From Bacteroidia bacterium (GTDB taxonomy: Bacteria; Bacteroidota; Bacteroidia; Flavobacteriales; Flavobacteriaceae), in contig JAUIBH010000004.1 in NCBI GenBank assembly GCA_030427985.1, forward strand, positions 1 to 64,000: 64,000 bases of DNA, written 5' to 3'. The notes beneath the pieces were generated by a model. It did no database searches and had not been told where the DNA came from. It saw nothing but the letters and a program-made list of their open reading frames with translations. Position numbers and translations under genes: made by a program. Of this stretch, positions 23,185 through 37,068 are shown one piece after another. Every line of letters starts with the position of its first letter. Position 1 is the first letter of the stretch.

Positions 23185-23667
23185 ATGGCCACCGAGAACA
23201 AGAATTTATCAACTTACGATAAGACTAAAATCCCAAACGCGAAGGACCTTCGGTTTGGGATTGTTGTTTCTGAATGGAACGACGAAATCACTTCGGCACT
23301 TGCCCAAGGCGCTTTTGATGCTTTAATTGATTGTGGCGCTAAGGAAGAAAATATTCTAAAATGGGATGTGCCCGGTAGTTTTGAGCTCACCTTCGGAAGC
23401 AAAAAGATGATTACGACCCAAAAAGTGGATGCAGTTATTGCCATCGGAAGTGTTATTCGGGGAGAAACCAGTCATTTCGATTTTGTGTGCAGTGCCACGG
23501 CCCAGGGCATCAAAGATTTGAACGTTACCTACGATGTTCCCGTGATTTTCTGCGTCCTGACGGATGATACCATGCAGCAGGCCAAAGACCGTAGTGGTGG
23601 TAAACATGGCAACAAAGGAACAGAAGCGGCTATTGCGGCCATCCAGATGGCGGTGTTGGGCAAATAA
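23185..23667 (+). CDS. ribH: 6,7-dimethyl-8-ribityllumazine synthase
   Basis: 160 residues. Condenses the ribityl-aminouracil with dihydroxybutanone phosphate in riboflavin synthesis. Family motifs are present: FGIVVSEWNDEITSAL, WDVPGSFELTFGSKKM, IAIGSVIRGETSHFDFV (with the catalytic His), and FCVLTDDTMQQAKDRSGGKHGNKG. It follows the TPR gene directly. No other riboflavin genes are in the window. Confidence 0.97.
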   Translation: MATENKNLSTYDKTKIPNAKDLRFGIVVSEWNDEITSALAQGAFDALIDCGAKEENILKWDVPGSFELTFGSKKMITTQKVDAVIAIGSVIRGETSHFDFVCSATAQGIKDLNVTYDVPVIFCVLTDDTMQQAKDRSGGKHGNKGTEAAIAAIQMAVLGK

Positions 23668-23668
23668 G

Positions 23669-23792
23669 CTCAAGTTCAAGTTTCAAACTCAAGTTCAAGA
23701 GCATATATGGGATGTCTTTTATCAAGTTGAACTTTTGGACGGTTGGATCGTTGGATTTTTGATCTTGAAACTTGTACTTGCACTTGAACCTG
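23669..23792. repeat. Short direct and inverted repeats downstream of ribH
   Basis: CTCAAGTTCAAG occurs at 23669-23680 and 23688-23699. An inverted counterpart, CTTGAAACTTGTACTTGCAC (from 23764), lies about 70 bases on, with CAAGTTTCAA facing TTGAAACTTG. The arms could fold into an imperfect long hairpin after the ribH stop. It may be a dispersed intergenic repeat or a weak transcript end. Confidence 0.55.
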
Positions 23793-28649: not shown

Positions 28650-28946
28650 ACAATCCACCAAATCGGCAATGATATGAATGATGAGGGCCAACCCAATAAT
28701 TCGCGTTACTTTAAAGAAGGGTAGAATACAATACACTAAGATGGCCCAATAGGAATGCAGCGGGTGAAAACCAATGCTACAACGGTTTGGGTCAAATAAA
28801 GGCACAGCCCAAAGATGGTCCACATCAATTATAATTCCTGCCAAAAGAATAAGCATCACTTTGATTCTATGCTCCTTAAAAAAGAAAAAAGCAATAAGGA
28901 TGGGGACCAGAAAATGGATGCCGTAATGTAGGATATGCCTATACAT
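28635..28946 (-). CDS. DUF6122 family small membrane protein
   Basis: 103 residues with three to four membrane segments. It has IIIDVDHLWAVPLFDPNRC and GFHPLHSYWAI, a D-x-D-H-L and H-P-L-H pattern resembling metal-dependent membrane hydrolases of the YdjM type. The family is known to me as DUF6122; the function is unknown. It overlaps the end of the wbqC gene by 8 bases, so it is last in that operon. Confidence 0.82.
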   Translation of the reverse strand: MYRHILHYGIHFLVPILIAFFFFKEHRIKVMLILLAGIIIDVDHLWAVPLFDPNRCSIGFHPLHSYWAILVYCILPFFKVTRIIGLALIIHIIADLVDCLLLR

Positions 28947-29520
28947 CCAGAAAGTCTAATGGTTGGTTTTTTAAATAGGAGAGTGTATTGGGGCCTTCAT
29001 TGAACAAAAGGTCCAAGACGCTCAGGTTGGGGATAAAGCCATGGCGCTCCCCAAAAACTTGGGTGTAAGGCTCCATTCTTAGAGGAAGTTCTTTTTTGGC
29101 CTCCGCCAAAAATCGGGCATTAAAAAATTCCTTTGGTTGAAGTTCGTAAGATGAAGTTTTATTCTTGTAAAATTCCAGTCCCAAGCAATTGGATATGGCC
29201 TGTATGGTATTAAGGTTGAATCTGTACAATGATGTCTCATCTCCCTCGTACAACGGTCTTATGTCGTCTTCATAAAATTCAAAAAAAGGAGAGGTTCTAT
29301 AGGCAGTTTCCAAGGTACGCCAATGTACCTTTTTCCAATCGTAGGTGTTGTCCAGTTCAACATCAAAATATTTTTGGCGCCCTTCATTTCCTCCTACATG
29401 TTTTATGGGGATGTTGAGCATGTGTTTTCCCTTATCGGTGCAGATATAGCAACGATTACGGTAGGTCTGTTTCTGAAAATTATCATGGGCTTCCCAAATC
29501 ACATCCTTTTGCACCAACAC
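28939..29520 (-). CDS. WbqC family protein, start codon lost or non-canonical
   Basis: The listed start is the first possible GTG (29520), giving 193 residues. Conserved Bacteroidota WbqC sequence is visible: HDNFQKQTYRNRCYI, HWRTLETAYRTSPFFEFYEDD, and NLSVLDLLFNEGP. The frame continues upstream without a stop to 29628 and encodes ILVHPTYFPSIATFA, the true family N-terminus, directly before the GTG. No ATG, GTG or TTG exists there, only ATA and ATC codons (e.g. 29589, 29586). So the real protein is probably longer and starts at an unusual codon, or the gene was damaged by the adjacent cassette. WbqC-like proteins are linked to O-antigen loci; the role is unknown. Confidence 0.8.
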   Translation of the reverse strand: MLVQKDVIWEAHDNFQKQTYRNRCYICTDKGKHMLNIPIKHVGGNEGRQKYFDVELDNTYDWKKVHWRTLETAYRTSPFFEFYEDDIRPLYEGDETSLYRFNLNTIQAISNCLGLEFYKNKTSSYELQPKEFFNARFLAEAKKELPLRMEPYTQVFGERHGFIPNLSVLDLLFNEGPNTLSYLKNQPLDFLDV

Positions 29521-29563
29521 AGCAAACGTGGCAATACTTGGAAAATAAGTAGGATGAACTAGT

Positions 29564-30018
29564 ATTTGTTGATTTGTTGATTCGATTATGGTACAGATTA
29601 TCCGTTGTTTACTTGGTTTGGTGATTTCTCAAGGAATTGAGTTTGTTTGTTATGCTTTCCAATTGCTTCCTAAGATTTTGATAAGTGTCCATTGCAATGA
29701 AGCCTAATTCAAGTGCTAAAATTAACTGGTTTAGTACTTCAACCGAAGAACCAAAAGAAATTGTGGTAAAATGCGCTTTATCCTTATTGGTTTTTCGAGC
29801 TGAACCTTCAGCAATGTTGGAACAGATTGAAACTGCTGCCCTCCGCATCTGAGAAGTCAACCCAAATTTTTCATCATCTGGAAAGGTAGATGTTACATTA
29901 TAGATTTCTTTAGTAAAATCTTTGGATTCTTTCCATACTTCAAGTTTTTCAAAAGAATAGGTGTACATAGGTTAAGTTGTTCAAATAAACAAATTCGCGG
30001 ATGAACAAATTAACGAAT
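29564..30018. mobile_element. Putative four-helix-bundle gene cassette with imperfect terminal inverted repeats
   Basis: A 21-base segment at 29564-29584 (ATTTGTTGATTTGTTGATTC plus G) matches the reverse complement of 29998-30018 at 17 of 21 bases. The two enclose exactly one gene, the four-helix-bundle protein. The right arm reaches into the lepB stop codon (30018-30020); the left arm reaches the wbqC N-terminal codons. No transposase or target duplication is visible. The arms are AT-rich and simple, so chance similarity is possible. Confidence 0.4.
29609..29968 (-). CDS. Four helix bundle protein (S23/IVS-encoded-protein-like)
   Basis: 119 residues in four predicted helices: FEKLEVWKESKDFTKEIYNV, then FGLTSQMRRAAVSICSNIAEGSAR, then FTTISFGSSVEVLNQLILALELG, and a final helix YQNLRKQLESITNKLNSL. 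This is the signature of the 'four helix bundle' family, whose relatives are encoded by intervening sequences in 23S rRNA genes and which share their fold with Avd proteins of diversity-generating retroelements. Such genes are scattered between unrelated operons in Bacteroidota. The role is unknown. It is an insertion into an otherwise conserved lepB-wbqC order. Confidence 0.9.
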   Translation of the reverse strand: MYTYSFEKLEVWKESKDFTKEIYNVTSTFPDDEKFGLTSQMRRAAVSICSNIAEGSARKTNKDKAHFTTISFGSSVEVLNQLILALELGFIAMDTYQNLRKQLESITNKLNSLRNHQTK

Positions 30019-31763
30019 TAACCATTTTCATTTTTCTTTTTTCGTTTTCTAAAGTAGTCAAACACAAACCACCCTACGATCAAAGCTACAAAGTACCAGC
30101 GATACGATACAGGTTCACCGCTTCCACCTACAGTGGTGAAAATTCGCTCCCAACGAGGCCTCCAATTGGCAATGCCTTCTGTAAAATTGTCAAAACTCAT
30201 CCAAAGGAAAACGGGCTTGCCCACAATATGGTCGGCGGGTACATACCCCCAGGTTCGACTATCTTCAGAGTGATCCCTGTTGTCACCCATCATCCAATAA
30301 TAATCTTGCTTAAAGGTATAGGAGTCAGCTTCTTCACCATTGATAAAAACCTTCTGGCCGCTCACTTTTACGTCATTGTGCTCATAATCCCGGATGATTT
30401 TTTTGTATAGGGGGATGGTTTTTGCATTAATTTCAACCGTGGCACCCTCTTCCGGAATATAAATTGGTCCAAAATTATCATTGTTCCATGGATACAAGTT
30501 GGGTTTTTGTGGAAAAGCCCCGCCATATTTTCCTTTTGGCTCCTCGGTCATTACTACTGAATCAATGGCTGAATTTTCCCGAAGTTTTGCCACCATTTCG
30601 TCAGTCATATTGGCAATTCTAGACCTTGGTTTTTCCTCGGTCAGAGAAAGTCTCAGTTGTCTAATGACATCAACAGGGATCCCATCTGCATCTGCAAGAA
30701 GTTCTATTTTGCCGTCTTGGGTTCTATTGGCCCCAAGCACAAATGGGGCAAGGGCATTGTACTGATTTTGATTGAGGGCTCCTGATATATAGGTCCTCAA
30801 AAAATCCGATGCACCCACTTCTTCCAACAAACGGCTGGAGACTCCATTTTTGGCATAAATTTCATAATCATACATCGGTTTTGCTCGATCCGATAATTTT
30901 AATCTAGTTCCATTAATATGAACATAGCCATCAATCACCGCAAGGGAATCTCCTGGAGTACCCACACAGCGTTTAACGTAGTTGGATTTTTTGTCGATGG
31001 GTTTTATCACCGCTTTTTGCGCCTTGAAGAACTGATACAGGGTATCCGATGGAAGGCTGAATACCACAATATCGTTTTTCTTTACCCTTTCGAAGCCAGG
31101 CAATCGCATGTAAGGCAACTGTAGTTTGTTGATCCAAGAAGTTTTATAGGTATCTGGGTCTACATCTGCCAAATAGGACCGTGTCTTAAAAACGGGAAGT
31201 GTATCATGCACCATGGGAGCGGCCAAGGTGGTCATTGGAACACGTGCTCCATAATGGAATTTACTCACAAAGAGAAAATCCCCAACTCTAAGGGTCCTTT
31301 CCAAGGAACCGGTGGGTATCACATACGGTTGAATAAAATAGGTGTGTACCAATGTTGCGGCCACAATGGCGAAGACGATGGAGCTTACCCATTCGCCCAA
31401 CCCCGTTTTAGGTTTAAGGCTTCGGTCTTCAATGTAGGTGACATCTTCTGCATAATTTATATAGTATATATAAAGGCCGAGGGTTAGAATCACCAACCAA
31501 GTATCCAAAAGGGTGTTTTTGCCAAAACTTCGGATGGTTTCTACCCATACCACGGGAATCATCAACAAGTTGATAATGGGAATGAACATCAGTATGACCC
31601 ACCACCAAGGGCGGTTAATGATTTTCATTAAAACAACACCATTATAAATTGGAATTGCCGCTTCCCATGCTTTTCGTCCTGCTTTTATGTAAAGCTTCCA
31701 AGTTCCCAAAAAATGGATAACCTGAATGATCAAGATAAAAATAATCCACTGTGTGCCACTCAT
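30018..31763 (-). CDS. lepB: Signal peptidase I, long Bacteroidota form
   Basis: 581 residues, far longer than the ~320 of E. coli. Three N-terminal membrane segments (about 5-100) precede the Lep domain: membrane anchor 125-145, catalytic Ser153 in VIPTGSLERTL, Lys264 in NYVKRCVGTPGDS, and GDNRDHSEDSRTWG near the C-terminus. A large insert (about 300-420) splits the catalytic fold, and a last membrane segment lies at about 555-572. It removes Sec signal peptides at the outer face of the inner membrane. It follows dapB in the par-dapB-lepB operon. Confidence 0.95.
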   Translation of the reverse strand: MSGTQWIIFILIIQVIHFLGTWKLYIKAGRKAWEAAIPIYNGVVLMKIINRPWWWVILMFIPIINLLMIPVVWVETIRSFGKNTLLDTWLVILTLGLYIYYINYAEDVTYIEDRSLKPKTGLGEWVSSIVFAIVAATLVHTYFIQPYVIPTGSLERTLRVGDFLFVSKFHYGARVPMTTLAAPMVHDTLPVFKTRSYLADVDPDTYKTSWINKLQLPYMRLPGFERVKKNDIVVFSLPSDTLYQFFKAQKAVIKPIDKKSNYVKRCVGTPGDSLAVIDGYVHINGTRLKLSDRAKPMYDYEIYAKNGVSSRLLEEVGASDFLRTYISGALNQNQYNALAPFVLGANRTQDGKIELLADADGIPVDVIRQLRLSLTEEKPRSRIANMTDEMVAKLRENSAIDSVVMTEEPKGKYGGAFPQKPNLYPWNNDNFGPIYIPEEGATVEINAKTIPLYKKIIRDYEHNDVKVSGQKVFINGEEADSYTFKQDYYWMMGDNRDHSEDSRTWGYVPADHIVGKPVFLWMSFDNFTEGIANWRPRWERIFTTVGGSGEPVSYRWYFVALIVGWFVFDYFRKRKKKNENG

Positions 31764-34980: not shown

Positions 34981-37068
34981 TTAATCCATCAAAATAGTTA
35001 AGATTTCTATAGCTGCATCACTGATTTTTGTGCCAGGCCCAAAAACGGCCACTGCGCCTTTGTCCAAAAGATGCTTGTAATCCTGTTTTGGAATGACGCC
35101 GCCCACGATGACCATGATGTCCTCCCGGCCTTGTTTTTTCAACTCCTGAATCACCTCGGGCACCAAGGTTTTATGCCCTCCCGCCAAGGATGAAATACCC
35201 AGAATGTGCACATCGTTTTCCACGGCTTGTTTGGCCACTTCGGAAGGCGTTTGGAACAAAGGACCAATATCCACGTCAAAACCTAGGTCAGCATAGCCGG
35301 TAGCGACGACTTTTGCGCCGCGGTCATGCCCATCTTGACCCATTTTGGCCACCATGATGCGGGGTCTTCGCCCTTCCTGAAGGGCGAATTCATCGGCCAT
35401 TTTTTTGGCCTTTTCAAAACTTTCGTCGTCTTTGATTTCTTTGGAATACACTCCGGTAAAGGATTGAATCTTGGCTTTATAACGACCGAATGCACTTTCC
35501 ATGGCATCACTGATTTCTCCCAAGGTGGCACGTGCTTTGGCCGCTTGTACCGCTAAAGCTAACAAATTTCCACGGTCAGATTCGTTTTGGGTGGTTTTTT
35601 TGGAAGCGATTCGGATGGATTCCAAAGCTTTTTCAACCTCGGATGCATCCCTTGTGGATTTGATGTTTTCCAAACGCTCCATTTGTTGTTTGCGGACCTT
35701 CTCATTGTCCACCTCCAAAATTTGAAGCTCATCTTCATCCTCCAATCGATATTTGTTCACGCCCACAATCACATCTTGACCACTATCGATTCGGGCTTGC
35801 TTTTTGGCGGCTGCTTCCTCAATCCGCATTTTGGGGATACCCTCTTCAATCGCTTTGGTCATGCCGCCTAATTTCTCCACCTCCTCAATCAATTTCCAAG
35901 CTTCTTCCGCGATTTCTTGGGTGAGTTTTTCTACTACGTGGCTTCCAGCCCATGGGTCAACCGTTCTGCAAACATTAGTTTCTTGTTGTAAATAGATTTG
36001 GGTGTTTCGGGCAATCCGTGCGGAGAAATCTGTGGGTAGGGCAATGGCTTCATCCAACGCATTGGTATGCAAACTCTGCGTGCCACCAAATGCTGCTGCC
36101 ATCGCTTCAATAGTGGTTCGGGCTACATTGTTGAAGGGGTCTTGCTCCGTTAAACTCCAACCACTGGTCTGACTGTGGGTACGGAGCATGAGTGATTTTT
36201 CATTTTTAGGGTTGAACTGCTTCACGAGTTTTGCCCAAAGCATCCGACCGGCCCGCATTTTGGCAATTTCAGTGAAATGGTTCATTCCAATGCCCCAGAA
36301 AAACGAAAGTCGGGGAGCAAACTCATCGATTTTTAACCCAGCTTTGATTCCGGTTCGGATGTATTCAATTCCATCAGCGAGGGTATAGGCCAATTCCATC
36401 GCAGCGGGCGCACCTGCTTCATGCATGTGGTACCCAGAAATACTAATACTGTTGAATCGCGGCATATGTTGACTGGCAAACTCAAAAATATCGGCCACGA
36501 TTTGCATGGAGGGCGTAGGTGGGTAGATGTAGGTGTTCCGCACCATAAACTCCTTTAAAATATCATTTTGGATGGTCCCTGAAAGCTGTTCCATGGATAC
36601 GCCTTGCTCTTCCGCAGCCACAATATAAAAGGCCATGATAGGTATTACGGCCCCGTTCATGGTCATGGATACGGACATTTTGTCCAAAGGAATGCCATCG
36701 AACAGAATTTTCATATCCTCCACGGAATCGATGGCGACTCCAGCTTTGCCGACATCGCCAACAACACGCCCATTATCAGAATCATAACCGCGGTGCGTGG
36801 GGAGGTCAAACGCTACCGAAAGCCCTTTTTGGCCTGCCTCCAAATTTCTTCGGTAGAAGGCATTGCTTTCCTCAGCCGTGGAGAATCCCGCATATTGACG
36901 GATGGTCCAAGGTCTGCGAACGTACATGGTGGAGTAGGGGCCACGGAGGAACGGTTCAATACCTGCGGCGAAATCGGAGTGCCTAAAGTTATGAGTTAAG
37001 GGTTTTGAGTTATGAGTGTTATTCGACTCTGAACTCAACTCCATCTGTTGAAGGTCTTTTCTACTCAT
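34981..37068 (-). CDS. mutB: Methylmalonyl-CoA mutase large subunit
   Basis: 695 residues. A TIM-barrel substrate domain ([23 protein letters not shown], and [16 protein letters not shown]-like region near 300) and a C-terminal B12 domain (from about 565) with the DGHDRGAKV motif that places His under cobalt, SSLAGG and VGGVIP. It rearranges (R)-methylmalonyl-CoA to succinyl-CoA with the small subunit encoded upstream (8-base overlap). Residues 12-31 between the start and the conserved domain come from a repeat-like DNA segment, listed separately. It is the last gene of udk-ftsB-mutA-mutB. Confidence 0.96.
36987..37017. repeat. 21-base-period direct repeat inside the mutB N-terminal codons
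   Basis: AGTTATGAGT occurs at 36987-36996 and 37008-37017, a 21-base period that equals seven codons. On the minus strand it reads as ACTCATAACT units and is translated as [10 protein letters not shown]. 'Aactcataact' strings resemble short dispersed repeats found between genes in this group. Confidence 0.55.

Follow-up and report, generated by a model that had tools for sequence, protein, structure and literature searches.

Intervening sequences (IVSs) of 23S rRNA genes that carry an S23p open reading frame (ORF), known from Coxiella, Leptospira and others, have been described as selfish elements (PMC4990558). Orphan heptanucleotide repeats include 186 and 183 GGGAATC arrays in Xanthomonas, with 70 and 75 cases of convergent neighbours, and the GGGGA(C/T)T repeat of Nostoc (PMC4692102), as well as TAACTGA arrays spread over Beggiatoaceae, Cyanobacteria and Bacteroidetes, for which no spread mechanism was evident and a translational role was proposed (PMC4679880).

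The element analysed here lies in a 64,000-nt stretch of a Bacteroidia genome (contig JAUIBH010000004.1; this whole stretch is referred to as the window) and consists of a gene for a four-helix-bundle (4HB) protein of the PF05635 family between two arms. It resembles the 23S rRNA IVSs in having a PF05635-family ORF as its sole gene and complementary ends (PMC4990558). Unlike these IVSs, it is located between protein genes, its ends are arrays of short words that differ between clades, and the elements of its family give no sign of RNA excision (no G·U bias, open host frames in some copies). The orphan heptanucleotide repeats are likewise tandem 7-nt units with drift and mostly intergenic (PMC4692102, PMC4679880). 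In contrast to them, the arrays described here bracket a PF05635 gene. The STRRs of cyanobacteria, on which Mazel and others worked, are reportedly heptanucleotide tandem repeats too. REP/RAYT, in which one trans-acting gene is accompanied by many short dispersed mirror-pair repeats, would be an analogous arrangement; unlike it, the present element has no transposase, its protein is a four-helix bundle, and its unit is a tandem short-word array instead of a palindrome. Finally, Avd of diversity-generating retroelements (DGRs) is a distant homologue of the 4HB protein, although both profile matches were below cut-off (bAvd, 27.4 bits against 40; DivGenRetAVD, 28.2 bits against 80). A DGR or reverse transcriptase partner for the 4HB gene was looked for and not found: the element's own genome (88.9% complete) contained no match to the reverse transcriptase family RVT_1 (PF00078).

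The lepB–wbqC element

The 4HB protein matched PF05635 with 131.2 bits (cut-off, 33.8), and the only PDB relative found by sequence search was 2gsc, XCC0516, which forms a ring of five four-helix bundles (PMC4990558). lepB is located upstream of the 4HB gene and wbqC downstream, all three on the minus strand (Table 1); the site is this junction and not a 23S rRNA helix. No Rfam family was above cut-off for the element, and a known RNA was rejected as its identity, the single match being far too low (15.8 versus 50 bits).

The first-pass annotation had described imperfect 21-base inverted repeats with 17 matches that enclose only the 4HB gene within a conserved lepB–wbqC order. This observation was confirmed: the repeat was found at 29564–29584 and 29998–30018 (21 nt, 17/21 or 81% complementary, arms 413 nt apart), the 4HB gene is the only gene between the arms, with no transposase gene, and the unit is a real presence/absence unit, found at the lepB–wbqC junction in 7 of 71 genomes of the genus. 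The right arm had also been said to include the first bases of the lepB stop codon, but its 21 nt hold only the last base (30018).

The arms are not the ordinary unit-copy terminal repeats that had been supposed. Read on the gene strand, the downstream arm is the reverse complement of TTTGTTGA TTTGTTGA TTCG, and the upstream arm consists of degenerate copies of the same 8-nt word. Tandem Repeats Finder (TRF) reported 8-nt arrays at 29564–29582 (2.4 copies, 100% matches) and at 29982–30022 (5.1 copies, 63% matches), both among the 20 rows returned for the whole window at the lowest threshold; the latter array covers the whole lepB stop codon (30018–30020). The 21-nt arms are therefore the best-matching core, and the visible part, of two inverted arrays of a TTTGTTGA-like 8-nt word.

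Table 1. Features of the element, its neighbours and a separate array in the window.
Feature	Position	Strand	Basis or content
wbqC (PF08889), extent counted from the ATA codon; lacks the native TTG start	28939..29562	-	
ATA codon, proposed wbqC start (use as start predicted)	29560..29562	-	ortholog alignment
Downstream arm (3' of 4HB gene)	29564..29584	+	8-nt word array TTTGTTGA TTTGTTGA TTCG
4HB gene, 119 aa, PF05635 (23S_rRNA_IVP)/TIGR02436	29609..29968	-	profile matches
Upstream arm (5' of 4HB gene)	29982..30022	-	TTCGTTAA TTTGTTCA TCCGCGAA TTTGTTTA TTTG
lepB (signal peptidase I), upstream neighbour of 4HB gene	30018..31763	-	same strand
Word array without 4HB gene	23660..23705	.	word matches own-genome element L011 (0/40 column-permuted controls)

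When the two 60-nt flanks of the window copy were dinucleotide-shuffled, its inverted score of 26 was reached in 5 of 1,000 shuffles, and the summed score of the seven orthologous elements was reached in none of 1,000. Taken singly, L153 and L155 were non-significant (76 and 113 of 1,000 shuffles as good), and with wider flanks and the arms of other sites as yardstick, four wbqC-site elements were not outstanding (median 32% as good). The inverted repeat is thus modest in the window copy and secure across the orthologous family. As for second copies of the arms, the exact 18-nt core was found at a single location in its own genome, and similar arms were present on the orthologous elements of six other genomes of the genus. 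Matches to the core with two mismatches occurred at six further places in the own genome, compared with two for a reversed-pattern control; three of the six are one string, TTTGTTGATTTGGGGATT, found twice on contig C18 and once on C130. No target-site duplication was seen by eye at filled versus empty lepB–wbqC junctions, where the arms overwrite the junction.

The wbqC frame of the window encodes the N-terminus ILVHPTYFPS after 24 open codons that precede the His and include no in-frame ATG, GTG or TTG, as the first-pass annotation had noted. Among 22 element-free loci taken from the genus, the N-terminus was recognisable in 20, and all 20 have a TTG at the fifth codon upstream of the HPTYFP His, compared with none of the seven element-bearing loci. 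The readable cassette-free junctions keep a start codon; the native start is indeed missing from all seven element-bearing loci, as proposed, but it was a TTG and not an ATG. In five of the seven, no in-frame ATG, GTG or TTG precedes the conserved His; L156 has a TTG two codons before it, and L153 has an ATG three codons before it and a GTG 17 codons before it. The codon that holds this ATG is ATA in five other element-bearing genomes (the window copy, L152, L154, L156 and L157) and ATT in one (L155).

Over the first 12 wbqC codons of four distinct start-less genomes, pN was 0.036 and pS 0.72, a pattern which indicates that the stretch is selected as protein; the wbqC N-terminus of these genomes is under purifying selection. 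This speaks against the truncation of wbqC that had been considered, and leaves the other half of that proposal, an ATA/ATC start, in the form of ATA or ATT as the best remaining choice in most of the genomes. The insertion at lepB–wbqC would have laid an arm over the TTG start, and from the alignment, wbqC initiation now most likely occurs at ATA (at ATT in one relative and at ATG in another). Restoration of the TTG by RNA excision was also considered; in-frame joins can be drawn on paper, but the evidence on RNA removal given below speaks against it.

PF05635 elements in the genus and beyond

The genus-wide and wider pattern is the main result, and it is beyond sight from the window alone. 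PF05635 matches were present in 58 of 60 genus genomes; the genome of the window has 11, and the flanks of its other 10 copies are ordinary genes by eye. Two different elements of this genome (L003 and L007) occupy neighbouring junctions of its fadA operon. The genus analysis covered 121 distinct elements, a part of a genus total that is at least this large. With both neighbours found for 119 elements (drawn from 132 ORF hits, fragments included), 117 were on the same strand as both, so that in the genus the elements are nearly always placed in sense orientation between codirectional genes; in a phylum sample, 9 of 88 were on the strand opposite to both neighbours. The genus elements clustered into 18 gene-pair classes, one of which lumps seven unclustered loci, and the host genes are unrelated (thyA-, fadA-, hemB-, metF-, wbqC-like and others).

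The tree of the 4HB proteins grouped by insertion site, with the exception of fadA, where several clades occur, mixed with acdh; the window's clade was at lepB–wbqC in all seven genomes. Ten sites had three or more elements; the dN/dS of the 4HB gene was 0.06–0.10 at nine of them and 0.26 at fadA, and pS was 0.66–0.79 at the tested sites. Judged by the low dN/dS, the high pS and the grouping by site, the elements are old and mostly site-faithful, with their proteins under purifying selection.

In a wbqC tree of 27 rows, the element-bearing genomes were scattered among empty ones: L156 was sister to the empty L018 (support 1.0), L155 to L022 (0.98) and L154/L157 to L019 (0.97), and L151/L152 grouped weakly (0.76) with L021. 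Synonymous divergence between filled and empty relatives was 0.45–0.58 in the L156, L155 and L154/L157 cases and 0.87 for L151–L021; filled pairs differed by 0.71–0.87, with the exceptions of L151–L152 (0.46) and L154–L157 (0.39). For L154–L157, pS was 0.16 in the 4HB gene versus 0.39 in wbqC, a difference that suggests exchange of the element. Because all readable empty relatives keep the TTG, loss would have to rebuild this codon; simple loss from a filled ancestor seems less likely than gain on more than one occasion or the substitution of empty alleles for filled ones.

The arms were examined in four samples, which overlap slightly (L359 is an element of genus genome G042): 119 genus elements, 88 phylum elements, 76 elements of named genomes (including Chloroflexi, Acidobacteria, Verrucomicrobia, Clostridia, Fibrobacter, Chthonomonadales and candidate-phyla bacteria) and 29 gammaproteobacterial rows. 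Each upstream flank was aligned with the reverse complement of its own downstream flank, and the score was compared with those obtained with the arms of other sites or elements. Own inverted arms scored 28.0 versus 19.3 for other sites in the genus, 34.0 versus 20.1 in the phylum and 38.9 versus 19.3 in the named genomes. The own pairing was in the top 5% for 68/119, 57/88 and 50/76 elements, respectively (direct-orientation controls, 12, 17 and 22), leaving 51, 31 and 26 outside it. Matches in direct orientation were also above chance in the named genomes (32.0 versus 18.5), and in the gammaproteobacterial rows they were higher (43.9 versus 18.9) than the inverted ones (38.3 versus 21.5), indicating that arrays can hold both orientations and that the layout is not purely inverted everywhere.

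A 7-nt period was common to all samples. Identity in the phylum arms was 0.40 at lag 7 and 0.38 at lag 14, compared with 0.27–0.31 at other lags; at lag 7, it was 0.42 in the genus, 0.41 in 50 Bacteroidota, 0.43 in 26 other loci and 0.42 in the gammaproteobacterial rows, and at lag 14, it was 0.37–0.40 across the genus, phylum, named-genome and gammaproteobacterial sets. As a control, the flanks of 705 genes without 4HB were flat at 0.27–0.285 at every lag, whereas eight 4HB genes from the same stretches gave 0.35 at lag 7 and 0.40 at lag 8. A strong period of 7 nt was found for 39 of the 88 phylum elements, of 8 nt for 9, of 11 nt for one and none for the other 39; the 8-nt period of the window's own site (wbqC) recurs at the rlu and s18 sites, and 7 nt is the period of the family as a whole. 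PF05635 genes thus tend to have inverted arrays of a degenerate word on either side, with a word of 7 nt or, at some sites, of 8 nt.

Among plasmid records, 23 had a PF05635 match, most of them cyanobacterial. All five cyanobacterial plasmids read by eye had 7-nt arrays (mainly in direct orientation in L272), and three of these elements (L271, L272 and L275) are housed in CRISPR–cas operons, at cas10–cmr3 and cas6–cas4 junctions; cas-associated PF05635 genes have been published before (PMC3936711). A direct scan of 800 kb for mirror pairs gave 15 with a score of at least 34, of which four enclosed a 4HB gene and the remaining 11 were unlike word arrays by eye; five of the nine 4HB genes in the scan, including all three of G062, were below this score, and TRF at score 36 detects few of the degenerate arms.

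The sequence of the word varied between protein clades and between sites. Same-site arms were alike across genomes, scoring about 30 (upstream with upstream) and about 39–44 (downstream with downstream) at 60–80% protein identity in windows that can include coding ends of the neighbours, compared with 16–17 for arms of different sites; one site's word was still recognisable at distances where synonymous sites are near saturation. Nine pairings of different sites had a protein identity of at least 50%. In four of them, the arms exceeded those of other sites: fadA–trpD (23.6; own arms 23.5, other sites 15.6), metF–metH (21.3; 25.2 and 15.1), acdh–fadA (18.5; 29.2 and 15.5) and wbqC–L127 (17.9; 21.8 and 15.5). 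The other five (eight element pairs) were at background, 12–16, so that proteins this similar need not share a word. In larger groups, the word accompanies the element and drifts along with the protein.

With wide flanks, own arms scored no better than same-site arms of other genomes (28.0 versus 28.0). A within-site permutation test gave 24.87 versus 23.24, reached in 0 of 2,000 permutations with the 80/90 window and in 4, 5 and 24 of 2,000 with the others, and its signal came mainly from fadA and s18; no arm co-variation was found in it at thyA, hemB, metF, s20 or wbqC. Within a clade, it seems to be the word that is conserved rather than the pairing, as would be expected of a recognition sequence. 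That arms are re-made at each site from target sequence was not supported as the main rule, given that several sister clades at different sites share a word wholly or partly; it may apply to the five pairings (eight element pairs) that share none. Words at some sites run on past stop codons.

Arrays without genes and genes within genes

Some arrays stand alone. A search of 864 kb for strict non-coding arrays gave five at lag 7 and one at lag 8, with none at lags 4–6 or 9–12, and none of the six was near a 4HB gene. Three of nine gene-less arrays matched an element's word better than all 40 column-permuted controls: those with the thyA word (630108, G062), the rlu word (663412, G062) and the L011 word (in the window). 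For the other six, as good a match was reached by 1 and 3 of 40 controls in two cases and by 6 to 40 of 40 in four. With the strict gene-less arrays located far from 4HB genes and six of nine gene-less arrays not beating all of their controls, arrays may lead a life of their own. Three regions were noted: a mirror-like array without a 4HB gene at 36980–37050 of the window (AGTTATGAG... / ...CTGAACTCAACTCC; 31/40 controls as good); a fadA junction at about 663405–663510 of G062:C1, where rlu-type arrays remain without a 4HB gene and which looks internally deleted; and a single intergenic region at 629992–630151 of G062:C1 with several heptamer words in a row (TTATCAA, AGAAGTCGGATGTC and ACCCTTC types).

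The Xanthomonas word GGGAATC was met as the arms of L419 (G599), around a broken 4HB gene whose neighbour we take, by motif, to be accC-like. In the class sample of 369 genomes, the best match to XCC0516 had 57% identity. The open-access literature searched held no link between PF05635 genes and the heptanucleotide repeats of cyanobacteria, Beggiatoaceae or Xanthomonas; no paper with both heptamer and S23 or four-helix-bundle terms was among the matches listed, and neither S23, four helix nor intervening is mentioned in the text of PMC4679880 or PMC4692102.

In five of the 88 phylum elements, the 4HB gene was found within a host ORF but read in another frame, with the same offset between the two frames each time. 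The host frame has no stop across the 4HB gene and contains both halves of the host protein. The hosts of L184, L200 and L227 are presumably type III mod methylase-like, and those of L209 and L258 N6-adenine-methylase-like, both assigned by motif; there are thus two kinds of host gene, each met more than once. Having been found by way of the open frame, so that broken host genes would be missed, these copies are examples and not a rate. Among the 121 genus elements, no stop-free frame across the 4HB gene and 60 nt on each side was found. Arm mismatches that are G·U-tolerant on the sense strand were in no excess (66 versus 124 in the genus, 84 versus 95 in the phylum). Together with the host frames open through the in-gene copies, this speaks against an RNA stem with IVS-type excision: an open host frame would serve no purpose if the element left the mRNA.

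Interpretation and alternatives

On balance, we think it more probable than not that the lepB–wbqC element belongs to a widespread kind of DNA element in which a PF05635 gene is located between inverted word arrays and the protein recognises its own word. The 4HB protein, a member of the family of the pentameric ring XCC0516, would recognise the word array as DNA and would help the element to persist at, and re-enter, one specific site in a homing-like manner. Filled genomes do occur dispersed among empty relatives with the TTG in place, a pattern for which allele replacement is the alternative. The protein could act by promoting annealing or recombination between the short words, carried out by host enzymes, which are invoked because the element has no nuclease, transposase or reverse transcriptase, and slippage in the arrays would account for their variable length and for arrays of the same words that lack a gene. 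More tentatively, the ring protein might hold several short repeats and aid their annealing, an idea that would fit the near-constant tandem units, the arrays at both ends, the slippage and the lack of a nuclease.

We find it somewhat unlikely that the arrays are passive products of slippage and inverted template switching, in which 4HB genes merely sit or survive without any recognition of the word. Arrays without genes do exist, at periods 7 and 8, heptamer arrays have been published without mention of S23 (PMC4679880, PMC4692102), and the word is unshared in five of nine close different-site pairings. However, arms bracket 4HB genes in samples from many groups while no period is seen around 705 other genes, the four other pairings share a word wholly or partly, and similarity among the arms of a single site persists despite nearly saturated pS. 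Gene-less arrays, the unrelated host genes and the occupation of the wbqC site in 7 of 71 genus genomes count against a regulatory role, in which the arrays would be operators bound by the 4HB protein or by some other factor to control translation or transcription of the neighbours, with mobility incidental; we regard this as quite unlikely, even though the arms adjoin the stop and start codons of the neighbours and a translational role has been proposed for TAACTGA arrays (PMC4679880).

An IVS-like RNA element, in which the arms pair in a polycistronic mRNA, the ORF occupies the loop and the element is cut or removed by RNase III, has a precedent in the Coxiella IVS, whose ends form a stem of 28 bp that this enzyme cuts (PMC4990558), and the protein family is the same and the layout similar, with the ORF between complementary ends. 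We consider it unlikely nonetheless, given the lack of a G·U excess, the host frames open through the 4HB gene in the five phylum examples (none of 121 in the genus), the several sites without co-variation and the absence of any Rfam family above cut-off. The reading of the first-pass annotation, in which a cassette of one gene with ordinary terminal repeats moved in recently and truncated wbqC, is in our judgement highly improbable as a whole. It is partly supported: presence and absence at a conserved junction, the lack of a transposase and the lost start codon agree with a small moving element. A freely hopping one-off does not agree with protein clades that mostly follow sites, and its "recent" and "truncated" parts are mostly refuted, because the element is common to seven genomes, most pairs of which are near synonymous saturation, and the wbqC N-terminus is conserved; in addition, the arms are word arrays.

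Returning to a DNA element with a word-recognising protein, a bolder extension appears to us possible rather than probable: that a class of elements found across bacteria has PF05635 proteins as its recognition proteins, with the orphan heptamer repeats (GGGAATC, TAACTGA, STRR) as its non-autonomous offspring and the 23S IVSs as its rRNA-dwelling relatives. The lepB–wbqC locus itself offers a natural case in which a conserved protein, in several genomes, has no ATG, GTG or TTG before its conserved N-terminus, and the insertions overprinted on methylase-like genes suggest that the frame of another protein can harbour such an element. The tie between word and protein clade connects PF05635 genes with heptamer arrays, both of which are open to simple binding assays. 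If the proposal is true, a lineage-specific short word, mostly of 7 nt, would be tiled in mirror arrays at both ends of these elements and read by their protein, PF05635 genes would be the missing trans-acting factor of the orphan heptanucleotide repeats, and the elements would form a class that has no transposase, reverse transcriptase or recombinase.
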